From NCBI RefSeq assembly GCF_000270245.1, contig NC_015635.1, forward strand, positions 2,542,001-2,606,000: DNA of 64,000 bases, given 5' to 3'. Positions 9,219 through 60,160 of the stretch are shown here, one piece after another. Below the pieces are notes generated by a model. It saw only the letters and a program-made list of their open reading frames with translations. It was not told the origin of the DNA and did not search any database. The position numbers and the translations under genes are program-made. Each line of letters starts with the position of its first letter. Position 1 is the stretch's first letter. This DNA is from Microlunatus phosphovorus NM-1 (GTDB lineage: Bacteria; Actinomycetota; Actinomycetes; Propionibacteriales; Propionibacteriaceae).

Positions 9219-9698
9219 ATGCGGGAACTCGACGTGGTCGGCGTCCGAGTGGAGATGCCGGCGAACAACCCGATGGTGCTGCTGCGCGAGGTGGGTGGTG
9301 TGCGCTATCTGCCGATCTGGATCGGAGCGAGTGAGGCCTCGGCCATCGCGAACGCCCAGGAGGGTGTGGTGCCGCCTCGCCCGATGACCCATGACCTGAT
9401 GGTCGACACACTGGCCACATTGGGGCATCGGCTGCGGGAAGTACACATCACCGAACTGAGCGGCGGCACGTTCTATGCGGTGCTGTTGGTCGACGGGGTG
9501 GAGATCAGTGCCCGACCCTCGGACGCCATCGCGTTGGCGTTGCGGGTGGGCTCACAGATCTACTGTGCAGAGAACGTCTTGAACGAGGCCGGCATCGAGA
9601 TGCCGGAGCAGGAGGACGACGAGGTCGAGAAGTTCCGCGAGTTTCTCGATCAGGTCAATCCCGACGACTTCGTCACCGGCGAGGAACCCAAGCCGTGA
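9219..9698 (+). CDS. bifunctional nuclease family protein (DUF151)
   Basis: 159 residues matching the DUF151/BFN family ([72 protein letters not shown]). Plant homologues have nuclease activity; bacterial ones are poorly characterised, and mycobacterial Rv1829 has this position. The C-terminal 25 residues are acidic. TAGTGT lies 6 nt before the ATG, compatible with a leaderless transcript, while GAGG sits too close to act as a normal ribosome site. Ten bases separate it from the upstream MerR gene. Confidence 0.82.
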   Translation: MRELDVVGVRVEMPANNPMVLLREVGGVRYLPIWIGASEASAIANAQEGVVPPRPMTHDLMVDTLATLGHRLREVHITELSGGTFYAVLLVDGVEISARPSDAIALALRVGSQIYCAENVLNEAGIEMPEQEDDEVEKFREFLDQVNPDDFVTGEEPKP

Positions 9699-9715
9699 GG
9701 GCCAGACGCTCTGGA

Positions 9716-9731
9716 GTCTCACTTGAGACTT
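9716..9731 (+). promoter_or_regulatory. AGTCTCA/TGAGACT palindrome, candidate MerR operator
   Basis: Perfect 7-bp arms AGTCTCA (9716-9722) and TGAGACT (9725-9731) around a 2-nt centre, upstream of the promoter of the second MerR gene. It shares the AGTCT..AGACT core with the palindrome before the FHA gene at 7762. Autoregulation by one of the two MerR proteins is inferred. Confidence 0.45.
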
Positions 9732-9763
9732 CGCGCGGGCTCCGCTGGTCCGCGGCGTGTCGT

Positions 9764-9793
9764 TGACCCCTCGTCGGAGTCGGTCGTAGCGTT
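9764..9793 (+). promoter_or_regulatory. sigma-70-type promoter for the second MerR gene
   Basis: TTGACC (9764-9769) and TAGCGT (9788-9793) are separated by 18 bp, a good match to the housekeeping sigma consensus, and precede the gene by about 65 bp. Confidence 0.5.
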
Positions 9794-9859
9794 TCGGGTG
9801 CAAGCAAATCTCCTGGGCGAAATTCCATCGTTCGGGTTCGCATGAAGGGGGAGGCGTCA

Positions 9860-10459
9860 GTGGGGACGAGCGACATGCCGAAGTCCGATGAGCAGCTCGA
9901 GGGCCTGGAATCGATGGCCGATGCCCAGGGTCTGCTGTTCGATGGCGATTTCTCCCCGCTTCCGGCTGATTTCGGCTTCCGCGGGCCGGTCGCCTGCAAT
10001 GTCGCCGGCATCACCTATCGCCAGCTCGACTACTGGGCTCGGACCGGGCTGGTCTCGCCGGAGATCCGTGGCGCCAAGGGCTCCGGCTCGCAGCGGCTCT
10101 ACAGCTTCCGGGATGTGCTGCTGCTCAAGGTGATCAAGCGGCTGCTGGACGCCGGGATCTCGCTGAACCAGATCCGTACCGCTATCGAGCATCTGCGCGC
10201 CCGCGGCGTGCACGATCTCACCGAGGTCACCTTGATGAGCGATGGTGTCTCCGTCTTCGAGTGCACCTCCGACGATGAGGTCATCGACCTGCTGCGCGGT
10301 GGCCAGGGTGTGTTTGGCATCGCGCTGGGTGGCGTGTGGCGTGACATCGAGGGGACGCTGTCCGAGCTGCCTGCCGAGCGCGCCGACGTCCCCGTCGAAG
10401 AAACTCCGACAGCCGACGACGAGCTGGCCCAGCGTCGTCGGGCCCGCGCCGTCGGCTGA
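9860..10459 (+). CDS. MerR-family regulator (Rv1830-like)
   Basis: 199 residues from this start. The MerR helix-turn-helix spans ~48-115 (ACNVAGITYRQLDYWARTGL, then GSGSQRLYSFRDVLLL). A conserved C-terminal part follows (GQGVFGIALGGVWRDIEG). The order nuclease-MerR-glycine decarboxylase is conserved in mycobacteria (Rv1829-Rv1830-Rv1832). The GTG at 9860 is preferred because GGGGGAGG lies 5 nt upstream; an in-frame ATG at 9842 has no such site. The last codons (Val-Gly-stop) are also the start of a 63-bp direct repeat copied 768 bp downstream. Confidence 0.8.
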   Translation: MGTSDMPKSDEQLEGLESMADAQGLLFDGDFSPLPADFGFRGPVACNVAGITYRQLDYWARTGLVSPEIRGAKGSGSQRLYSFRDVLLLKVIKRLLDAGISLNQIRTAIEHLRARGVHDLTEVTLMSDGVSVFECTSDDEVIDLLRGGQGVFGIALGGVWRDIEGTLSELPAERADVPVEETPTADDELAQRRRARAVG

Positions 10460-10513
10460 CCCCGGTCGAGTGACGACCCGGTAAGGTAGGCGCTGCTGAT
10501 GAAGCAGCGTGGG
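10451..10513 (+). repeat. direct repeat copy 1: gene end, promoter and leader hairpin, without aptamer
   Basis: 63 bp about 94% identical to 11219-11282 (three substitutions, one indel). It contains the last MerR codons, the TAAGGT -10-like hexamer (10481-10486) and the GCGCTGCT/AGCAGCGT hairpin. Sequence similarity stops where the glycine aptamer would begin. It now lies upstream of a lipoprotein gene. Confidence 0.85.
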
Positions 10514-10614
10514 TGGATGGACTGTGGCGGGGGGACTTGTTCCGTCTTCACCCCGGTCGGCACCGCTTTAAGCAAGCTCGGCCTAACACTCAAGACCACG
10601 TGAGAATTGCGACT

Positions 10615-11052
10615 ATGCGCCGTGCGCTGACTTCTCTCGCCATACCATCGATTTGCCTGCTATGCACACTGATGGGCTGCAGTTCGCCACCGTCTGATCC
10701 GGCGGGAGACTCCTTCGAGGTGCTCAGAAAGGACGAGTCTCGAATAGTTGTGCGTGCCGCCCGGGCGACCGCCGGCATGGACGCAGAACTGGAAGGAACT
10801 CTGGCCATCGGTGCTGACGGCTGCGTTGGAATACTTGAGGCGAACGGGGTCTTCCAGGTGGCGATCTTTCCCTTCGAGACTCGCTGGGGCGACGAACCGG
10901 ACACGCTCGGAGTCAACGGCGAAACTGTGCGCATCGGCGACCGTATGCGTCTCCAAGGTGGCATGACTAGCGACGTGGCGGTGCTAGACCTTGTCCACAA
11001 GGAATGTTCGGGCGCAGGGCAGGAGGTCTTCGATTCCACCGGAACTTACTGA
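10615..11052 (+). CDS. small secreted lipoprotein of unknown function
   Basis: 145 residues. The N-terminus is a lipoprotein signal: MRR, a hydrophobic stretch, and lipobox LMGC with C22 as the acylated residue. The mature part is predicted beta-rich (DGCVGILEANGVFQVAIFPF; VRIGDRMRLQGG), like the single-domain lipoproteins common in actinobacteria; I do not recognise a specific family. Base composition looks less GC-rich than the neighbours. It sits inside a segment bounded by two copies of the gcvP promoter/leader, which suggests insertion and use of the duplicated promoter. No strong ribosome-binding site is visible before the ATG. Confidence 0.72.
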   Translation: MRRALTSLAIPSICLLCTLMGCSSPPSDPAGDSFEVLRKDESRIVVRAARATAGMDAELEGTLAIGADGCVGILEANGVFQVAIFPFETRWGDEPDTLGVNGETVRIGDRMRLQGGMTSDVAVLDLVHKECSGAGQEVFDSTGTY

Positions 11053-11218
11053 GTCGAGCCTATTCAGGCATTCACGATTCCACGATCTGCCCAACCGGGG
11101 CCAGCCCACGCCCAGCGCAGTGAGTATGTCGCCGACGAGCGCGGAGCTGGGGAGGCATCGTTGTTCGAGTTGAGAACTCGCGCAACGACATCTCTGACGT
11201 CCAGTGTTGATCTGTTCT

Positions 11219-11282
11219 GTCGGCTGACACCCGGTCGAGTGACGAGCCGGTAAGGTGGGCGCTGCTGATGAAGCAGCGCGGG
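11219..11282 (+). repeat. direct repeat copy 2: promoter and leader of the glycine riboswitch
   Basis: 64 bp matching 10451-10513. It carries a vestige of the MerR gene end (GTCGGCTGA), the TAAGGT hexamer at 11251-11256, and a perfect 8-bp hairpin GCGCTGCT/AGCAGCGC at 11259-11279, then continues into an intact aptamer. Confidence 0.85.
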
Positions 11283-11385
11283 AGAGACCACCAGGCTCGA
11301 TGACGCGCAGGTGGCGCCGAAGGGGCAACCTCCCCGGAACCTCTCAGGCACCCAGACCTCGCTGCGATGGCAACTCTGGAACCGG
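11259..11385 (+). ncRNA. glycine riboswitch (gcvT type, single aptamer plus ghost element)
   Basis: Conserved aptamer pieces appear in order: GGGAGAGACC (11280-11289), GCGCCGAAGGGGCAAC (11334-11349 region), and the closing CCTCTCAGGCA (about 11340-11350). These are followed by CAGACC..CTCTGGA, typical of the ghost aptamer after single glycine aptamers. It sits directly before gcvP, as in mycobacteria, and would switch gcvP on when glycine is high. An 8-bp hairpin precedes the aptamer. Confidence 0.88.
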
Positions 11386-11408
11386 CCGGCGACAGAGGGG
11401 GTCCTGAG

Positions 11409-14279
11409 ATGGAGCCTGCCATGGACACAGAGACCTTCGCCGCCCGCCACATCGGACCACGTGCTGACGAGCGCGATCGCATGCTTGCCTTGGTCGGGGC
11501 GGCGGACCTGGATGATCTCGTCGCCCAATCCCTGCCGAGCACTATTACGGGCGAGGCGCAGCTGGAGCTTCCTGACCCGCTGAGCGAGTCGGAGGCCCTG
11601 ACCCGGTTGCGCAGCCTGGCGGCCGAGAACAATCCGGGTCGGGCGATGATCGGACTCGGCTACCACGGCACCATCACTCCCGCGGTGATCCGGCGCAACG
11701 TGCTCGAGGATCCCGCCTGGTACACCGCGTACACGCCGTATCAACCGGAGATCAGCCAGGGCCGGTTGGAGGCGTTGCTCAACTTCCAGACCATGATCGC
11801 CGACCTCACCGCGCTGCCGATCGCCGGCGCCAGCCTGCTGGACGAGGCGACGGCGGTCGCGGAGGCCATGACCCTGGCCCGGCGCACCACCAAGACGGGC
11901 AACGTGCTGTTGCTCGACGCCGATACGCTGCCGCAGACCGTCGCTGTGGTCCGTACCCGGGCCGAGGCGCTCAACTTGGACGTCCGGGTTGCCGACGGCG
12001 ACCTGCTGGACGCGATCGCGTCCCACCAGCCGTTCGCGGTGGTCGTCCAGACGCCCGGTGCCAGCGGCCGACTGGCGGCGACCCAGGAGCTACAGGCGAT
12101 CGCCGACGCGGCCCATGCCAAGGGCGCTGCCGTGATCGCGGCCTGCGACCTGCTGGCGCTCACCCTGGTGACCCCGCCAGGGGAGTGGGGGGCCGACATC
12201 GCCGTCGGGTCCAGTCAACGTTTTGGCGTCCCGCTGTTCTACGGCGGTCCGCATGCCGGGTTCATCGCGGTCCGGGCCAAGCTGGAGCGTTCACTGCCGG
12301 GTCGACTGGTCGGGGTGTCGAAGGACGCGGATGGTGTGCAGGCGTACCGGCTGGCTCTGCAGACCCGCGAGCAGCACATCCGACGGGAGAAGGCGACCTC
12401 CAACATCTGCACTGCCCAGGTGCTGCTGGCGGTGGCGGCCAGCATGTACGCGGTCTATCACGGCCCGCAAGGTCTGGTGCGGATAGCGAACGCGGTGCAC
12501 GGGGCAGCTTCGGCCTTGGCCGAGGATCTCACCGCCGCCGGGGTCGAGGTGGTCCACGAGCAGTTCTTCGACACCGTGCTCGCTCGGGTGCCGGGTAGGG
12601 CTGCGGAGGTAGTCCAGGCGGCACGTGCGGCCGGCGTACATCTGCGGTTGGTGGACGCCGACCAGGTGGGGATCTCGATCGGGCAGGATGCCACGGTCGA
12701 GGACCTGGCCGCGGTTCGGGCCGCGTTCGGAGTCGCCGGCGATCCGGCATGGCGGGGCCCCTCGCGGCTGGGGGAGTCTTCCCGGACCTCGGCGTACCTG
12801 ACCCATCCGGTGTTCAGCACCCACCACAGCGAGACCGCGATGCTGCGCTATCTGCGGGCGTTGTCGGATCGGGACTTCGCGCTGGACCGTGGCATGATCC
12901 CGCTCGGCTCCTGCACCATGAAGCTGAACGCCACCACCGAGATGGAGCCGATCTCCTATCCGGGATTCGCCGACCTGCACCCGTTCGTGCCGGGTGCGGA
13001 CGCGGCCGGTTATGCGATCCTGATCGCGGAGCTCGAAGGCTGGCTGGCCGAGCTGACCGGATATGCCAAGGTGTCGATCCAGCCCAACGCGGGCAGCCAG
13101 GGCGAGCTTGCTGGCCTGCTGGCCGTTCGCGGCTATCACCGGTCGCGCGGTGACGAGCAACGGACCGTCTGCCTGATCCCGTCGTCGGCCCACGGCACCA
13201 ATGCCGCGTCGGCGGTGATGGCGGGCATGAAGGTCGTGGTCGTCAAGGCGACCGATGACGGCTCGGTCGACCTGGACGACCTGCGGGCCAAGATCGCGAC
13301 CCATCGCGACCAACTCGCCGCGATCATGGTCACCTATCCCTCGACCCATGGTGTGTTCGAGGAAGGCATCACCGAGCTGTGTGGCCTGGTGCACGATGCG
13401 GGTGGTCAGGTCTATGTCGACGGCGCCAACCTCAACGCTTTGCTGGGTCTGGCTCGACCTGGCCGATTCGGCGCCGATGTCAGCCACCTCAACCTCCACA
13501 AGACCTTCTGTATCCCGCACGGTGGCGGCGGACCTGGCGTTGGGCCGATCGGAGTGGGCGCGCATCTGGTGCCCTACCTGCCGGGTCACCCTCTGGCAGA
13601 GGTCGAGGGTCGGGGGAATGGACCGGTGTCTGCGGCACCGTACGGGTCAGCCGGCATCCTGGCGATCAGCTGGGCCTACATCGCGATGATGGGGGCTGAC
13701 GGGCTGCGCAGTGCCACCCAGCACGCGCTGCTCGCCGCCAACTATGTCGCGGCGCGACTGACCGAGCACTACCCGGTCCTCTACACGGGCCGCAACGGCC
13801 GGGTCGCCCATGAGTGCATCCTTGACCTGCGGCCGCTGACCAAGGCCAGCGGGATTACCGTGGATGATGTCGCGAAACGGCTGATCGACTACGGCTTCCA
13901 CGCCCCGACCATGAGCTTCCCGGTCGCCGGGACCTTGATGGTCGAGCCCACCGAGTCGGAGAATCTGGCCGAGCTGGATCGCTTCTGCGACGCCATGATC
14001 GCCATCCGGGGCGAGATCGCGGCGGTCGAGACAGGCGACTGGCCGGGCGCGGACAACCCGCTGGTGAACGCGCCGCACACCCAGGCCCGGGTGACCGCGG
14101 AGGAGTGGCATCATCCGTACTCACGTCGGCTTGCGGCATTCCCGTCGGGCCTGCACGCCGGCCCGATCGGCGCCACCGGAGCCGACAAGTACTGGCCCCC
14201 GGTGGCTCGGATCGACGGCGCTTTCGGAGACCGCAACCTGATCTGCACCTGCCCACCGCCGGAGGCCTTCGAAGCCTGA
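11409..14279 (+). CDS. gcvP: glycine dehydrogenase (aminomethyl-transferring), P protein
   Basis: 956-residue PLP enzyme that decarboxylates glycine and loads the aminomethyl group onto the H protein. It has the fused two-domain form: the N-terminal half begins FAARHIGP and includes [13 protein letters not shown] and [18 protein letters not shown]. The C-terminal half carries [12 protein letters not shown] and the PLP lysine K698 in [18 protein letters not shown]. Length is typical. The ATG at 11409 is chosen because GAGGGGG at 11395-11401 is 7 nt upstream; an ATG at 11367 lies inside the riboswitch. Regulated by the glycine riboswitch and probably ended by the hairpin at 14319. Confidence 0.97.
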
Positions 14280-14318
14280 ACCTAGCCGTCGGGTGGCCAG
14301 AGTGGCCAGAAATGAAGC

Positions 14319-14361
14319 TGGCCCATGACGCTGAGGTCCCCTGCTCCAGCGCCATGGGCCA
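14319..14361 (+). terminator. strong hairpin after gcvP
   Basis: Arms 14319-14333 (TGGCCCATG A CGCTG) and 14347-14361 (CAGCG C CATGGGCCA) pair across 14 of 15 positions around a 13-nt loop, followed by a pyrimidine run TCTCTTTC. Forty bases after the gcvP stop. The remainder of 14362-14589 shows no gene; I see only a promoter for the small gene that follows. Confidence 0.65.
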
Positions 14362-14565
14362 TCTCTTTCGGATCCGGTCTGTGTGTGCGCCATCCCCCGA
14401 TGTTGGCACTCGCGGTCCGAATCCGTGTTCCCCTGGTGAGAAGAAGATTGCCAGGGCAATCGCAGCGGCGACTTCAGCCTGGGTGGACGAGTGCTCAGGA
14501 CCTACTCAAGGTTCTCCATGATGCTCAGGATGCATGCTCGACAAGTCGCGGCGGCCGTCGTGACA

Positions 14566-14603
14566 GTGACGCCGCCGCCTCGACGGCGGTAGTATTCGGC
14601 ATG
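14566..14603 (+). promoter_or_regulatory. candidate leaderless promoter
   Basis: GTGACG (14566-14571), 18 bp spacing, TAGTAT (14590-14595), then an ATG 5 nt later at 14601 without a Shine-Dalgarno sequence. Confidence 0.45.
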
Positions 14604-14840
14604 GATGCTGTCGAGTTCGTCATTGCGCTGTTGCCGACGGTGTTCGTGATAGTCGTTTGCATCGTTGCCTTCGCCCGACGACGTCACGGCTCGCCGCTGG
14701 TCGTGAATCCCTACACGCTCGCGATCGAGCCGAATGCGGACAACCACGGGTCACCGCCAGTGGTCCGGCCGATGCCTGAGCTGACAAGGTCAGATCCCTT
14801 GCAGCCGGGCCAGCCACCTCGGCCGGCCCAGATCAGCTGA
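14601..14840 (+). CDS. small single-pass membrane protein
   Basis: 79 residues: one N-terminal transmembrane helix (about 4-24, VEFVIALLPTVFVIVVCIVAFA) followed by a basic stop-transfer RRRHG and a hydrophilic, proline-rich cytoplasmic tail. No known family recognised. The promoter immediately upstream supports it being a real gene. It stands alone between gcvP and the repeat region. Confidence 0.55.
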   Translation: MDAVEFVIALLPTVFVIVVCIVAFARRRHGSPLVVNPYTLAIEPNADNHGSPPVVRPMPELTRSDPLQPGQPPRPAQIS

Positions 14841-14953
14841 GGACAAGTCCTCGGCCGATCATGAACTCGAGGCCCTGTTCCCAGCCGCAGTCGTATCGAC
14901 GGTTCCGGTGGCCCGCATTCGTCGATTCTGGCATCGGAGACGCGGAGGCGTCA

Positions 14954-14980
14954 CGAGAAGGAGGTTTGGCACCTGATTCC
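14954..14980 (+). repeat. single arm of the GAGAAGGAGG palindrome family
   Basis: CGAGAAGGAGG followed by TTTGGCACCTGATTC matches one arm of the palindromes at 39757 and 52752; no second arm follows here. The CAGCTGGTGCGAAGTGGGGA segment at 14993-15012 belongs to the TTCGCACC palindrome family. Confidence 0.65.
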
Positions 14981-15045
14981 GGGCGGTTGCCTCAGCTGGT
15001 GCGAAGTGGGGACTGGGGTGTGACCTGCGGTCGCCGGTCCGGCTG

Positions 15046-15304
15046 GCGCCGCCGGGCCAAAGATGTACCCGGCTCTGACGGGATGCTGAGTCGTTTCGCG
15101 CCGCCGGGCTACCAACGGCCACCAGTTGCGCGTGCACGGCGTACGTTTTGCGCCGCGGGGCCACGGACGGCCGTTGACCGGGCGTGCGTGGCGTACGGTT
15201 TGCGCCGCCGGGCCACGAACGATCGTCGACCGCGGGTCACGGCGTACCTCTCGCGCCGCCGGGCCACAGATCAGCGCCGGAGCAGCGTCTTCTGGCTCTG
15301 TCAG
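15046..15304 (+). repeat. 52-bp tandem repeat locus A (five unit starts)
   Basis: The segment GCGCCGCSGGGC recurs at 15046, 15098, 15150, 15202 and 15253, giving periods of 52, 52, 52 and 51 bp. Each unit also contains a GCGTAC element near its end. Flanks on both sides match locus B at 52321-52739. Together with the palindromes this fills the gene-free stretch 14841-15405. Confidence 0.85.
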
Positions 15305-15317
15305 GTGGGATCGCTGA

Positions 15318-15376
15318 TCGAGAAGGAGGTACGGCACCTAAAACCGGCGATTTGAGGTGCCAAACCTCCTTTTCGA
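15318..15376. repeat. long palindrome closing repeat locus A
   Basis: TCGAGAAGGAGGTACGGCAC and its complement ending CTCCTTTTCGA form arms of about 22 bp around a ~15-nt centre. Related to the palindromes at 39757-39814 and 52752-52809. Lies 30 bp from the 3' end of the MFS gene and could also act as a terminator. Confidence 0.75.
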
Positions 15377-31162: not shown

Positions 31163-31217
31163 CCGCTGGTACTGACCGGTGGCGTGCCGGCTCACGGGCC
31201 GTACGCGATCGTCTTTG

Positions 31218-31300
31218 GCCCCGCGGCGCCATGCGTGCGCGGATCACGCTTGGCCGCCGGTCGTCTGTGGCCCGCAGGCGCGAGACGTACCTGCGGCTCG
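31218..31300 (-). repeat. 52-bp repeat family, two degenerate units (reverse orientation)
   Basis: GGCCCCGCGGCGCC at 31218 and GGCCCGCAGGCGCG at 31269 are spaced 51 bp apart, each followed by the family's GTAC element (GACGTACC). They fill most of the gap between arcA and the PucR gene (31163-31346). Confidence 0.65.
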
Positions 31301-35905: not shown

Positions 35906-35937
35906 GCAGGCATGTGCTGGGTGTTAACCTGATCGGT

Positions 35938-35955
35938 GTCTGACAATCAGGTGAT
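35938..35955 (+). promoter_or_regulatory. FadR-type operator at the GntR gene
   Basis: GTCTGACAATCAGGTGAT is 16/18 identical to 43302-43319 before the FAD oxidoreductase gene. On the minus strand it reads TTGTCAGACAC, close to the FadR-subfamily consensus TNGTNNNACNA. Likely autoregulatory site. Confidence 0.55.
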
Positions 35956-35998
35956 GCCGCGGGGTCGGCAGCGCCCTGAGCGGTTCATTGGAGGCAGG

Positions 35999-36700
35999 GT
36001 GACCGTACGCGCCGACGGCCGAGATGCTCGGGCCGGGCTGTCTCCTGTCGCGTCGGTGAGCCGTCGCGACGCGGTGATGAACGAGATTCGCCGAGCCATC
36101 GTGCTCGGCGCGCTCAAGCCAGGGGAGAAGCTCACCGAGAATCGGCTGTCGGCGTCGCTGAGCGTGAGCCGGCCGACGATGCGGGAAGCGCTGACCCAAC
36201 TCGCTCAGGAGGGACTCCTGGTCCAGGAGCCCTATCGCGGACTGCGGGTCGCGGATCTGGACGCCAAGGCGATCATCGACATCGCCCGCACTCGGGTGGC
36301 CCTGGACATGCTGGCGGCGGAGGCCATCCTGGCCGACACGTCCGGCCAACGGCTGGAGGCGGTTCGCGAGGCCTGGGCCGACTATGACCGGCTGCCTATT
36401 GACGCCGACCCGGTCACCGCACATGAGGCCCATATCGCCTTCCATCGGCGCATTTGGGAGGCTTCGGAGAACATCTTGCTGATCCGGCTGTGGCCGGTCA
36501 CCGAGGCCCACCTCACGATCGCCCTGGCGCGGGACCAGACGACCCGCGACGACCCACGACGCGCTCATGACGTGCATGAGCGGATCGTGGATGCGCTGTT
36601 CGGTGGCGATCTCGACGAGGTGCATGCGGCGCTGGTAGCCCACACCGTCGACAGTGCCGAAGAACTGATCGCGATGCTGGCCGAGCTCGACGAGCGCTGA
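35999..36700 (+). CDS. GntR family regulator (FadR/FCD), probable hydroxyproline regulator
   Basis: 233 residues. Winged helix ~20-85 (EIRRAIVLGALKPGEKLTEN; LSVSRPTMREALTQLAQEGL) and FCD domain ~95-225 with metal-ligand-like residues (AHEAHIAFHRRIWEAS; HDVHERIVDALFGGD). It heads the region that contains the hydroxyproline genes, and a matching operator lies both at its own start and before the FAD oxidoreductase gene. GTG 35999 has GGAGG four bases upstream; in-frame starts at 35936 or 35954 would translate through the operator. Confidence 0.82.
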   Translation: MTVRADGRDARAGLSPVASVSRRDAVMNEIRRAIVLGALKPGEKLTENRLSASLSVSRPTMREALTQLAQEGLLVQEPYRGLRVADLDAKAIIDIARTRVALDMLAAEAILADTSGQRLEAVREAWADYDRLPIDADPVTAHEAHIAFHRRIWEASENILLIRLWPVTEAHLTIALARDQTTRDDPRRAHDVHERIVDALFGGDLDEVHAALVAHTVDSAEELIAMLAELDER

Positions 36701-36705
36701 AAGCA

Positions 36706-36843
36706 CCAGAACTCGCCACTCGATTCGGCGGTTTCGTCCGGGCATTGTCGGGTGGCGAGTTTCCGCTCTTTCGCGGCACGCACGTGAAAGGACCGATTCT
36801 CGCCACTCGGCGTGAGACCTCAAATCGAGTGGCGAGTTCTGGC
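36706..36843 (+). repeat. left inverted repeat of the DUF559 unit
   Basis: 138 bp that match the reverse complement of 37940-38073 at roughly 85% with one 4-nt gap. It contains four copies of CTCGCCACTCG in alternating orientation, forming two nested palindromes. Ends 3 bp before the stop codon of the nuclease-like gene. Confidence 0.9.
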
Positions 36844-36846
36844 GGA

Positions 36847-37782
36847 TTAGGTGGATCGGCGCCACGGCTCGAACGCGTCGCACCATTCTGGACCGAACAC
36901 CGGGCTCGGACCGTTGTATCCGCGAGATACCAAAGCATCATAGATTCGCATGACGACGTCGCGCGGACGCTTCAAATGTGCTTTGGCGACCCGGACCGGC
37001 AACACGCCGAACGCGACGATGCGCTCGTACCGCCGCAGATCCTTTCCATAGGTATCGGGATCGGTGCGGTGCTGATCACCCTCATATTCCCCAGCCACCC
37101 GCCATGCTCGCAAGTAGAGGTCGACCCGTGCGATGAATCCACGCTCATCGCCGAGTTCGACATTGCACTCGGGCTCAGGCAACCCTGCCAGGACCATGAG
37201 CAGCCGGAGCCGGGTTTCACGCGGCGACTCACTCCCCTCACGAACAAGTTCGGCGGCGCGTCGGGCCCGCCGACAATCCCGCCCCTCCGCGGCGGCGAGC
37301 GCAGCCTGCACCTCGCTCAGCGTCGCCCAGCCCGCCCGGATCAGCCAGTCCCCGGCAACCACCAGACCCAGCAGGTCCAGATCACGCCGGGCTGCGACGA
37401 GTGCCGGCAACGGCAGCAGCACCGAGTGCTGGCAGGGTGGCAGCTGACTCGTCCTGCGAACTCTCACCTCAGGGCGAGTCGAGTGGTGCTTCGCAGTCGT
37501 CACATATCGGTACGGCCGCTCGGTGCCGACCTCGACACCCCACAGTCGCAGCGCGCTCACGCCGTCGACGGCGGTCACCTCCGCCGGCAGAACCCTTAAG
37601 TAGGCCGCGGCTAACGCTTGGTACGTCGGGTCACAACTGGCGGCCAGGAACAGGCCCTGCCCGATCCGGCGTACGCCAGGTCCACGCAAGACGCCCGACT
37701 CAACCCCAGTCGCGGCGGCCAGGCTGGGGCCGAAGGCGCCCATGGTCAACTCCGGGGGCAAGGGCTTGCGGCGGGCTGGCAT
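36847..37782 (-). CDS. AbiEi-like/DUF559 protein with Vsr-like nuclease domain
   Basis: 311 residues. The N-terminal ~120 residues resemble AbiEi-type winged-helix antitoxin domains (VLRGPGVRRIGQGLFL; VTAVDGVSALRLWGV). The C-terminal part, from ~190, is a DUF559/Vsr-type PD-(D/E)XK fold: candidate catalytic residues D221 (IARVDLYL), E232 and Q237/H238 (VAGEYEGDQH), and the basic helix DLRRYERIVAFG. Such proteins are abundant in actinobacteria without a proven role; phage defence, mobile-element function or DNA repair are open. ATG 37782 gives the usual N-terminus. Flanked by long inverted repeats. Confidence 0.72.
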   Translation of the reverse strand: MPARRKPLPPELTMGAFGPSLAAATGVESGVLRGPGVRRIGQGLFLAASCDPTYQALAAAYLRVLPAEVTAVDGVSALRLWGVEVGTERPYRYVTTAKHHSTRPEVRVRRTSQLPPCQHSVLLPLPALVAARRDLDLLGLVVAGDWLIRAGWATLSEVQAALAAAEGRDCRRARRAAELVREGSESPRETRLRLLMVLAGLPEPECNVELGDERGFIARVDLYLRAWRVAGEYEGDQHRTDPDTYGKDLRRYERIVAFGVLPVRVAKAHLKRPRDVVMRIYDALVSRGYNGPSPVFGPEWCDAFEPWRRST

Positions 37783-37939
37783 GTGCCTAGCCTGACCTGC
37801 TGGACCCGAGCCCACCAGTAGTTCGGCGAAACGGACAATACTCCGCGTAAAAAGACAACACACCGTCGAAACTGGCAACACCTGCGTCGTGTCGACAGGC
37901 GGATTCTGTGTGCACTCAAAGGGTCCACGTCGCGAAACA

Positions 37940-38073
37940 GCTAGAAGTCGCCACTCGATATGAGGTCTTACGCCGAGAGGCGAGAATCTGTCCTTTCACG
38001 TGCCGCGAAACAACCAGAACTCGCCACTCGACAATGCCAGGAGGAAACCGCGGGATCGAGTGGCGAGAAATGG
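37940..38073 (-). repeat. right inverted repeat of the DUF559 unit
   Basis: 134 bp complementary to 36706-36843. Contains the CTCGCCACTCG/CGAGTGGCGAG motif pairs and the shared core GTCCTTTCACGTG. Confidence 0.9.
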
Positions 38074-38116
38074 TCCTTTCGCGACCAGATCTCGCCACTG
38101 GGGCCCTGGAACTGGG

Positions 38117-39475
38117 TCAGGCGGGGAGGGGAGTGGTGCTGCGGATCAGCTTCTTGTTGATGAACTCGTCCATGCCGTAGCGGCCCATCTCGCGGCCGAA
38201 GCCAGAACGCTTGATGCCGCCAAAGGGCAATTCGACGCCGTCCAGCAGGACGCCGTTGATGAAGACCATGCCGGCCTCGATCCGATCGGCGACCCGGACC
38301 GCCTGCTCGGGGTCGGTGGTGAAGACGTACGAGCCGAGACCGAACGAGGTGTCGTTCGCCAACTCGACCGCCTCATCTTCACTGGAGACCTTGAAGACCA
38401 TCGAGATCGGCCCGAAGAACTCCTCGCGGAAGGCCGGGTTGTCGGGGCGTACGTTGGTCAGTACGCCGGGCGGGTAGTAGGCGCCGCTCCGCTCGCCGCC
38501 ACCGACCAGCGTCGCACCACCGGCGACGGCCCGCTGCACCTGAGCCTCGAGCCGCTCGGCGGCAGCCAGGGAGGAGAGCGGCGCGATGCCGTCGCCCTTG
38601 GCCAGGGTCAAAGCAGCGATCTTCTCCACGAAGCCGTCGTAGAGGTCCTCGGCCACGATGAAACGCTTGGCGGCGTTGCAGGACTGGCCGGTGTTGTCGA
38701 ACCGGGCATCGACGGCCGCCTGTACCGTGCTGTCCAGGTCGTCGGTGGACAGCAGCACGAACGGGTCGGACCCGCCGAGTTCGAGCACGACCTTCTTCAG
38801 GTGCCGTCCGGCGATCTCGGCCACGGCCGCGCCGGCCCGCTCCGAGCCGGTCAGCGAGACCCCGGCCACCCGCGGATCGCCGATGATGTCTGCCGCCTGG
38901 TCGTTGGTCGCGTACACGTTCACGTAGGCGCCCGCCGGGAAGCCGGCATCGTCGTAGATCCGCTGGATGGCGGCGGCCGACTCCGGGCACTGGGGTGCGT
39001 GCTTGAGCACGATCGTGTTGCCGATGATGAGGTTCGGGCCGGCGAAGCGCGCGACCTGATAGTAGGGAAAGTTCCAGGGCATGATGCCGAGCAGGACGCC
39101 CATCGGGCTGCGTCGGATCAGCGCGCTGCCTTCGCCGGCCAGCAGGTTGATCGGCTCGTCGGCCAGGAATGCCTCGGCATTGTCGACGTAGTAGTCGTAG
39201 ATCTGGGCGGCGAAGTCGACCTCGAAGAGCGACTCCTCGAGCGGCTTGCCCATCTCGGTGACGATGATCTCGGCCAGCTCCTGCCGACGCTCGGTGTGTA
39301 GTTCCGCCACCCGGTGCACCAGCGCGGCACGTTCGGCCACCGTGGTGCCCCGGGCCCAGGTCCGGCTGGCTTGGTAGGCGCTGGCGACGGCCTCGTCGAT
39401 CTGGGCATCGGTGGCGGTGGGATAGCTGCGGAGGACTTCTCCGGTGGCGGGGTTGGTGACGGCGTACTCGCTCAT
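38117..39475 (-). CDS. aldehyde dehydrogenase, 2-oxoglutarate-semialdehyde/succinate-semialdehyde type
   Basis: 452 residues. NAD(P)+-dependent aldehyde dehydrogenase with general base E232 (VLELGGSDPFV) and nucleophile C266 (NTGQSCNAAKR), close to succinate-semialdehyde dehydrogenases in the ending LPFGGIKRSGFGREMGRYG. In the hydroxyproline pathway the last step oxidises 2-oxoglutarate semialdehyde (2,5-dioxopentanoate) to 2-oxoglutarate, and this is the dehydrogenase nearest to the pathway genes, so that role is inferred. Succinate semialdehyde remains possible. Confidence 0.83.
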   Translation of the reverse strand: MSEYAVTNPATGEVLRSYPTATDAQIDEAVASAYQASRTWARGTTVAERAALVHRVAELHTERRQELAEIIVTEMGKPLEESLFEVDFAAQIYDYYVDNAEAFLADEPINLLAGEGSALIRRSPMGVLLGIMPWNFPYYQVARFAGPNLIIGNTIVLKHAPQCPESAAAIQRIYDDAGFPAGAYVNVYATNDQAADIIGDPRVAGVSLTGSERAGAAVAEIAGRHLKKVVLELGGSDPFVLLSTDDLDSTVQAAVDARFDNTGQSCNAAKRFIVAEDLYDGFVEKIAALTLAKGDGIAPLSSLAAAERLEAQVQRAVAGGATLVGGGERSGAYYPPGVLTNVRPDNPAFREEFFGPISMVFKVSSEDEAVELANDTSFGLGSYVFTTDPEQAVRVADRIEAGMVFINGVLLDGVELPFGGIKRSGFGREMGRYGMDEFINKKLIRSTTPLPA

Positions 39476-39756: not shown

Positions 39757-39814
39757 TCGAGAAGGAGGTCTGGCACCTGATTCTTGCGGAATCGGGTGCC
39801 AGAGCTCCTTCTCG
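39757..39814. repeat. long palindrome of the GAGAAGGAGG family
   Basis: Arms TCGAGAAGGAGGTCTGGCAC.. and ..GTGCCAGAGCTCCTTCTCG pair over about 27 bp with a few mismatches around TTGC. Same family as 15318-15376 and 52752-52809. Confidence 0.8.
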
Positions 39815-39877
39815 CGCCGTTTCTCGTAGCGCAGGTGGCGAGAACGAACTCGGCTCCGACCGCTGGTGACCGTATGT

Positions 39878-39965
39878 GGCCCGCGGGCGCAAGGCGTGCC
39901 CAGCTGCTGCGGGATTCCAGGTCGTCTGTGGCCCCGCGGCACAAGATGTACGCGCCCTCCGCAGA
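39878..39965 (-). repeat. 52-bp repeat family, two units (reverse orientation)
   Basis: GGCCCGCGGGCGCAAG at 39878 and GGCCCCGCGGCACAAG at 39930, exactly 52 bp apart, the second followed by ATGTACGCG. Lies between the palindrome and the proline-racemase-family gene; with the remnant at 39539 this fills the gap 39476-39969. Confidence 0.7.
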
Positions 39966-52320: not shown

Positions 52321-52739
52321 GCGCAGCCGGGCCCAAGATGTACGCGGCTCTGACGGGATGCTGAGTCGGTTTGCGCCGCCGGGCCACCGATGACCACCAG
52401 TTGCGCGTGCGCGGCGTACCTCTCGCGCCGCCGGGCCACCAACGACCACCAGCTGCGCGTGCACGGCCGTACGTTTTGCGCTGCGGGGCCACGGACGACC
52501 GCTGACCGGGCCCGCACGGCGTACCTCTCGCGCCGCCGGGCCACCAACGACCACCAGCTGCGCGTGCACGGCCGTACGTTTTGCGCCGCGGGGCCAAGGA
52601 CGGTCGCTGAGCGGGCGTGCACGGCGTACGTTTTGCGCCGCGGGGCCAAGGACGGTCGTTGACCGGGCGTGTGCGGCGTACCTCTCGCGCCGCGGGACCA
52701 CAGATCAGCGCCGGAGCGACGACTTCTGGCTCTGTCGGG
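52321..52739 (+). repeat. 52-bp tandem repeat locus B (eight unit starts)
   Basis: GCGCCGC-type unit starts at 52321, 52373, 52425, 52478, 52530, 52583, 52635 and 52687: periods of 52 or 53 bp throughout. Units differ in the middle (ACGACCACCAGCTGCGCGTG versus ACGGTCGCTGAGCGGGCGTG types). Both flanks match locus A at 15046. It is the longest of five loci in the window. Confidence 0.9.
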
Positions 52740-52751
52740 TGGGATCGCTGA

Positions 52752-52809
52752 TCGAGAAGGAGGCAAGGCACCTGTTCACGGCCGAATCAGGTGCCAGAAC
52801 TCCTTCTCG
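52752..52809. repeat. long palindrome closing repeat locus B
   Basis: TCGAGAAGGAGG.. to ..CTCCTTCTCG with inner GGCACCT/AGGTGCC; arms about 22 bp. Same position relative to the tandem units as 15318-15376 in locus A. Confidence 0.8.
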
Positions 52810-52892
52810 CGAGGACCTGCGTGCGCCGAGCGGGCAGGCCGAACGGGACTTGCCTGCACTCGCCTCTACCGCCGACCGCCGAGATCCCGCAT

Positions 52893-59958: not shown

Positions 59959-60085
59959 CAGCGTGCCTGAGAGTATGGCAAGAGATGTCGCCGTGTCAAT
60001 AGGGACGCTCGCAGTACCGAGAGGCTGCGAGAGTCGAGACCTGCTTGCGTACCTGTACGTGCTTCGGGGGTGGGCGGTCGTTTGC

Positions 60086-60160
60086 GTCCCGCGGGCGCAA
60101 GGCGTACGCGTCCTACCCGCGGTTCACGTTCGTCCGTGGCCCGGCGGTGCGAAACGTCTC
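60086..60160 (-). repeat. 52-bp repeat family, two units (reverse orientation)
   Basis: GTCCCGCGGGCGCAAGGCGT at 60086 and GGCCCGGCGGTGCGAAACGT at 60138, exactly 52 bp apart, the first followed by the GTACGCG element. Confidence 0.65.

Follow-up and report, generated by a model that had tools for sequence, protein, structure and literature searches.

A putative EDxHD nuclease gene and its flanking palindromes form a probable mobile, or formerly mobile, cassette in Microlunatus phosphovorus

Analysis of a 64,000-nucleotide stretch of Microlunatus phosphovorus NM-1 (contig NC_015635.1, positions 2,542,001 to 2,606,000; hereafter the window) indicates that positions 36699-38083 probably constitute a mobile or formerly mobile cassette, belonging to an actinobacterial family in which a predicted hydrolytic nuclease of the EDxHD type is paired with palindromic repeats in a REP/RAYT-like manner. 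In most sampled members of this family the gene is bracketed by a palindrome private to that member, and dispersed gene-free copies of the palindromes are found where looked for.

Within the window, a single gene is enclosed by inverted repeats (36699-36843 and 37940-38080) that are 83.4% identical over 145 columns, in agreement with the ~137-bp repeats of about 85% identity reported in an original prediction made from the sequence of the window. Three base pairs separate the end of the left repeat (36843) from the stop codon of the gene (36847-36849), as reported there. Two imperfect palindromes, B and A, make up each flank as a doublet, in the mirror order B-A-gene-A-B; the alignment of the ~150-bp unit (A1) comprises the two flanks of the window gene, those of a paralog (L015) and two gene-free copies. 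The features of the unit are as follows.

36699-38083, no strand: whole unit B-A-gene-A-B, found at a second genomic place too (alignment with the L015 locus)
36847-37881, minus strand: gene for a 344-aa protein (311 aa from the ATG at 37782) with an AbiEi-like N-terminal and an EDxHD/Vsr-type nuclease C-terminal part, seen in the open reading frame, structure model, nuclease fold match and conserved E222, D254, H271 and D281
36699-36780, no strand: left outer palindrome B, loop of ~26 nt (inverted-repeat arm I1; alignment A1)
36780-36848, no strand: left inner palindrome A, loop of ~16 nt, at the 3' end of the gene (inverted-repeat arm I2; alignment A1)
37935-38003, no strand: right inner palindrome A, upstream of the gene (inverted-repeat arm I2; match to model R1, own genome 2579933-2580083)
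37999-38080, no strand: right outer palindrome B (inverted-repeat arm I1; match to model R1)
38085-38101, no strand: extra half repeat unit past the right doublet (motif with 1 mismatch, 38091-38101)
37830-37882, minus strand: upstream repeated words resembling GGACAA(T/C)AC, common to the L015 locus (read by eye)

The motif CTCGCCACTCG, allowing at most one mismatch, recurs in alternating orientation four times on the left flank, as had been stated for each repeat, and five times on the right, where the extra half unit at 38091 exceeds the four described. Fourteen matches to this motif occur in the window, compared with a mean of 4.98 in shuffled sequence (0 of 100 shuffles reach 14); chance or composition as the source of the repeats is ruled out by the shuffles and by the controls on other ORFs given below. 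A search of Rfam over 36000-39000 returned no match at E <= 1. Judged from their sequence, the repeated words at 37830-37882 are a possible operator or promoter. Neighboring genes encode a GntR/FCD regulator (35936-36700, plus strand) and an aldehyde dehydrogenase (38117-39475, minus strand). Elsewhere in the window, a 64-bp direct repeat (94%; 10451-10513 and 11219-11282) lies around a small ORF (10513-11052), outside the palindrome families studied here.

The structure model of the protein (AlphaFold2, 34 relatives) has a pLDDT of 89.3, with residues 1-33 below 50, which argues for a protein start at the ATG at 37782 (M34). The same start is implied by the numbering of the nuclease residues first proposed, D221, E232 and Q237, which become D254, E265 and Q270 when counted from the GTG at 37881. 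Two of these residues stand up to comparison over 34 aligned rows (D254 in all 34, E265 in 33), whereas Q270 is glutamine in only 16 and adjoins an invariant histidine, H271. Conservation (E222 in 33 of 34; D254, H271 and D281 each in 34 of 34) suggests that E222, D254, H271 and D281 make up the EDxHD set, the letters of which we take to mean E, D, H and D. The best nuclease match to the model in the PDB is I-Bth0305I (3r3p; 99 columns, TM 0.77 by target, probability 1.00, with a weak E-value of 0.025), followed among nucleases by Escherichia coli Vsr (1vsr; TM 0.54 by target, E 0.41). All PDB matches stay above E 0.001, and the three ranked above 3r3p are mitoribosome proteins with low TM. 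Viral matches include DUF559 and Vsr-like proteins. The model thus predicts a nuclease domain of the EDxHD/Vsr type. Comparison with Pfam gave no nuclease match for the window protein, DUF559 and MTES_1575 matches for its homologs, and no HUH/Y1 tyrosine transposase domain in either. An AbiEi-like N-terminus had also been proposed, and profile searches recover this likeness only as weak, sub-threshold matches (PADLOC AbiEi, E 0.086).

Seven homologs are encoded in the M. phosphovorus genome (5,683,123 bp) at E <= 0.01. The closest paralog, L015 (3762660-3763682), is 85% identical and carries the same doublets in the same order. Global alignment of the two loci shows that similarity spans from outer B edge to outer B edge, with background identity beyond, indicating that the shared unit is the gene together with its repeats. 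The dN/dS between the two genes, 0.16, points to selection acting on the protein. Searching the genome with a covariance model built for the doublet (R1) gave 14 sites at E < 0.01, of which four flank the two genes and ten are gene-free, a count that is a lower bound, with 150 of 1872 candidates scored; all genome-wide model searches scored only ~150 first-look candidates per genome, and their copy numbers are likewise lower bounds. A search for other repeat copies with and without a gene, as originally suggested, therefore yields one further gene-bearing unit and at least ten gene-free sites. When compared with ORFs from a crude gene call, four of the ten gene-free copies are clear, three overlap by <= 30 bp, two overlap short 149-aa ORFs by more, and one lies within a called 567-aa ORF. 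Among 19 other genomes of the genus, model R1 has only two marginal matches (G015, E 2e-4; G004, E 0.0035).

No empty site was found for the window unit, and GntR relatives in three other genomes of the genus share no neighbors with it. Searches of a plasmid collection gave three weak partial matches only, all on records of >= 1 Mb, and 50,697 phage records contained no match; plasmid or phage cargo is rejected on the basis of these searches.

The remaining paralogs in the genome reveal that different members carry different repeats. Repeats of distinct sequence again lie on both sides of L016-L019, such that six of the seven members have a left-right flank match of >= 50 bits; the seventh, L020 (293 aa, divergent), has a flank score of 23 and no pair. 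In a control of 315 ORFs in 464 kb of this genome, the window gene itself included, two of 314 other ORFs have a flank match of >= 35 bits (95 and 59 bits), both being direct repeats. An exact motif search had suggested that only two genes bear repeats, an idea that proved wrong once left and right flanks were compared with each other and different repeats emerged at the others. In the same 464 kb, the repeats of L016, L017, L018 and L019 have 2, 2, 8 and 6 gene-free copies, respectively, at E <= 0.01, after setting aside a seventh L019 match that is its own flank; shuffled queries gave four matches in ten rounds of nine. Nine of these gene-free copies fall in the window, partly side by side. 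Those of L018 and L019 type occupy 14954-15374, 39757-39939 and 52413-52811, as well as 31209-31291 and 60074-60143, and the three side-by-side clusters look as if intergenic hotspots were collecting several types. The flanks of L018, L031, L035 and L037 hold arrays of several repeat units ~50 bp apart where other members have one or two palindromes.

Across the actinobacterial class, 120 of 394 sampled genomes (including that of M. phosphovorus) encode a homolog at E <= 1e-15. We compared left and right flanks for 40 of these, taken one per new genome from a similarity-ordered listing with at least G109, G116, G166 and G284 omitted (short contigs or an inner stop), and counted matches in inverted, direct or, for palindromes, both directions. 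Flank matches are present in 27 homologs at 35 bits, 24 at 40 bits and 17 at 50 bits, leaving 13 of 40 without a pair. Of 419 further ORFs located in these stretches, called by a simple GC3-based procedure with the 5' end trimmed by 10%, two reach 35 bits and one reaches 45, the latter being an overlooked family member; a second family-like match in L072 may also sit among these controls. The resulting contrast of 27 of 40 against 1 of 418 (Fisher p ~1e-32), like that of 6 of 7 against 2 of 314 within M. phosphovorus, runs opposite to an outcome the original prediction had named as telling against it, namely repeats unrelated to the gene; nor do the repeats occur only singly at random sites, the other outcome so named.

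The repeat also goes with the protein. Own flanks match at 35 bits in 53 of 88 family genes. When the upstream flank of one gene is crossed with the downstream flank of another, flank sharing (>= 35 bits) is confined almost entirely to proteins more than 50% identical: it is seen in 0.9% of 2757 pairs with 0-30% or unscored protein identity, in 0.000 of 3454 pairs at 30-40% (at most one pair) and in 0.000 of 624 at 40-50%, as against 23% of 461 at 50-60%, 32% of 282 at 60-70%, 22% of 58 at 70-80% and 60% of 20 above 80%. These pairs are non-independent, many of the genes being orthologs, and misread ORFs (e.g., L075, L106, L165 and L175) were kept, with wrongly read pairs landing in the 0-30% bin.

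Many species of a genus that appears Mycobacterium-like, since a neighbor gene encodes a mycolic acid cyclopropane synthetase, carry a family gene at one and the same intergenic locus. DNA flanking this locus could be located in 82 of 148 genomes, and 40 of these loci were retrieved, with L177 and L187 cut by contig ends. In these and some additional loci, the family gene lies in plus orientation in most carriers and in minus orientation in six (L069, L175, L180, L182, L188 and L192). Remnants persist in L167, L184 and L186; in L193 and L197 the gene is absent and the gap is short; and in ten others (10 of 10) a cyclopropane synthetase gene takes the place of the family gene. The gene-less states of L193 and L197 suggest, from sequence, loss rather than a site that was never filled. 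Read by eye, the L193 gap seems to contain one small palindrome (~985-1093) and the L197 gap a short CGCCGAG/CTCGGCG arm remnant (~965-1012; reverse strand of the retrieved stretch). Longer gaps, of ~2.1 kb in six species (L189, L190, L195, L198, L094 and L103) and 5.7 kb in L110 (~9245-14962), mean that further DNA lies beside the family gene there, and L170 has an unclassified 4.8-kb gap. In genome G564, the left flank of the locus occurs twice on contig C34 (309349-310205 and 20488-21344) in opposite directions and with the same score, reflecting either a duplication or an assembly artefact.

Palindromes of ~60 bp lie beside the gene at this locus and fall into types T1, T2 and T3, which share outer arms like CGCCGAG...CTCGGCG. 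In the T1 stem, 8 of 20 pairs are changed on both sides, a covariation score that 0 of 500 shuffles reach. Two palindrome models (R2 and R3) detect a palindrome beside the gene at E <= 1e-4 in 23 of 28 gene-bearing species searched, and any palindrome at the locus in 0 of 12 gene-less ones. Twelve of the scored species had contributed to building the models; without them, the contrast is 11 of 16 against 0 of 12 (p 2.5e-4). Five gene-bearing species were missed (L164, L166, L169, L175 and L201), among which L166 and L169 carry T3, a type outside both models.

Phylogenetic comparison shows that these attributes follow the protein. In the protein tree of 27 species, T1 (SH-aLRT 98), T2 (91), T3 (100) and the reversed orientation (99) each form a single clade, the last counted without the misread L175, a wrong long branch, and with the 'other' group being the remainder. 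Mapped onto the tree of flanking genes, T2 requires five changes, T1 two, T3 one and the reversed orientation three; the sister species L163 and L164 have different alleles at the locus. Repeat type and orientation thus track the protein tree and not the host tree, indicating that gene, orientation and palindromes travel together. Between L075 and L110 the locus gene is 66% identical and the flanks are 81-88% identical.

Without the gene, too, palindromes occur at a given matching site in some species and are absent in others. One spot between convergent genes, in syntenic 20-kb stretches, is empty in L075 and L092 and is filled by three different palindromes in L088 (71 bp), L094 (89 bp) and L103 (64 bp); the L094 palindrome is of the type found beside that species' own gene. 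A second spot usually holds a terminator-like hairpin, which is replaced by a T2 palindrome in three of six species with T2 at the locus (L075, L173 and L174); L176 has a degenerate T2 relative there, and several other species have other palindromes. The empty-site comparison proposed at the outset yields occupied and unoccupied sites for gene-free palindromes, and no empty site for the window unit. Inspection of five candidate insertions for target-site duplication turned up one that could be a 3-bp CTA duplication, and none that is convincing.

Counted on both strands, genomes whose locus gene is of the matching type contain 14-32 T1 or 5-33 T2 matches, and cross-type matches amount to 4-30 for T1 in T2-type genomes and 0-8 for T2 in T1-type genomes. 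Where the locus holds another gene (ten genomes), T1 gives 0-2 and T2 0-3 matches, except for 10 T1 in G595; in G541, whose locus lacks the gene, there are 18 T1 and 37 T2 matches. The M. phosphovorus genome (G000) has no match to either model, and of 12 sites retrieved from G547, 11 match the T1 palindrome at E <= 1e-4. T1 and T2 are not confined to genomes whose locus gene matches them, as had been supposed, but both occur in many genomes; this overlap is unsurprising because each of the 35 Mycobacterium-like genomes carries 4-14 family matches somewhere.

We envisage that the protein, probably as a dimer, would recognize its own ~60-75-bp palindrome and nick or cut either that palindrome or an adjacent target. 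Palindromes, and less often the complete gene cassette, would then be spread by repair from another copy, while protein and palindrome would co-evolve and diverge into new specificities. An enzyme of the hydrolytic type would need host repair or recombination after the cut for such spread. That the palindromes are the target is suggested mainly by analogy with I-Bth0305I, whose ~60-bp dimer target matches them in size and symmetry. We hold any detailed chemistry of spread with less confidence than the mobile pair as such. The original prediction that the nuclease moves itself, or that the repeats are its targets, gains from the second unit, the gene-free copies, the protein-specific repeats and the occupied and unoccupied palindrome sites, with self-movement, binding and cutting as putative steps.

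Several observations count against a mobile pair: the 13 of 40 homologs, and L020, that have no repeat pair; the modest copy number in M. phosphovorus, whose ten gene-free sites (a lower bound) include only four clear of ORFs; the want of a clear target-site duplication; the weak E-value of the fold match (0.025); and the non-exclusive distribution of T1 and T2, as in G541 with its gene-less locus. The palindromes may also serve the host as terminators. If they were simply host terminators or recombination-prone repeats, with the genes as passengers and no enzyme action, ordinary recombination could have swapped alleles; homologous exchange of whole alleles through the conserved flanking genes is possible at the Mycobacterium-like locus, and palindromes do replace a terminator-like hairpin. 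We judge this unlikely, as it accounts neither for the pairing of each protein type with a palindrome of its own nor for the lack of such pairs at other ORFs.

Quite unlikely, in our estimation, is an arrangement in which the N-terminal part binds the palindromes as operators, so that the flanking copies autoregulate the gene, the dispersed copies form a regulon and the nuclease is a side function. In most pairs palindromes do precede the gene, palindrome sequence goes with the protein, and repeated words lie upstream of the window gene; yet copies adjoin the 3' end of the gene as well, whole units bounded by repeats exist at two places, and gene-free copies come and go between convergent genes or replace a terminator-like hairpin. 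Rapid divergence and allele swapping would also fit a defence or toxin-antitoxin-like locus, in which a diversifying nuclease is accompanied by self-marking palindromes, and L020 has weak NCBIfam matches (E 0.07-0.11) to anti-phage proteins with related nuclease domains. Against such a role, AbiEi at E 0.086 is the only PADLOC match, and the flanking GntR regulator and aldehyde dehydrogenase genes provide no toxin partner, making it very improbable.

The probable cassette can be set beside several known systems. RAYT genes are described as always lying between two inverted REPs, co-evolving with them and evolving fast relative to neighboring genes (PMC2817692), as flanked by other terminal repeats in some cases (PMC3733652), and in E. 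coli as encoding a TnpA-REP that processes single-stranded REP in vitro (PMC8266576). The likeness to such REPtrons lies in a gene between two inverted palindromes (in the window, and as flank matches in the 27 homologs), in dispersed gene-free palindromes (for the window repeat, the other types in the same genome, and T1 and T2), and in a repeat that co-evolves with its protein and a gene that diverges faster than its neighbors. In contrast to the HUH tyrosine transposase of RAYTs, the nuclease here is predicted to be of EDxHD/Vsr type; the palindromes are longer (~60-75 bp, as doublets in the window), there are many paralogs per genome, and consensus units A1 and A3 lack a GTAG head (by eye), with A2 having GTAG inside the stem.

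I-Bth0305I dimerizes on a target of nearly 60 bp, according to a review (PMC3943268), and the present family resembles it in nuclease-domain fold (3r3p), EDxHD residues and, through the size of the palindromes, presumed dimer target. It differs in having no reported intron or intein, another N-terminal part, dispersed copies and intact palindromes to either side of the gene. Insertion by homing would be expected to interrupt the recognition site; each flanking palindrome is complete here, though the actual target may be another sequence. Similarity to AbiEi/DUF559 proteins comprises the sub-threshold N-terminal profile match and the DUF559 or MTES_1575 matches of homologs; unlike AbiE, the gene has no adjacent AbiEii nucleotidyltransferase toxin gene, encodes a fused nuclease domain and bears repeats on both sides.

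In the open-access literature searched, with subscription papers and preprints largely outside its reach, we found no description of such repeats with DUF559 genes and no RAYT or REPIN in actinobacteria, and the family thus appears to be a large, apparently undescribed one of small mobile-DNA systems. We know of no repeat-spreading system with a related enzyme. As a tentative proposal, held with less than even confidence, the family could represent a new repeat-spreading class, in which several EDxHD nucleases per genome would each cut their own palindrome and spread palindromes and cassette by host repair, with a constant birth of specificities across actinobacteria. This reading gives a widespread orphan nuclease family a testable function and would provide REP-like palindromes with another type of enzyme, unrelated to the first; how such repeats spread could then be approached through enzyme-repeat pairs whose specificities are matched in nature. 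Protein-palindrome pairs may be a source of long-target nucleases, and part of the unannotated palindromic intergenic DNA in actinobacteria could be explained.
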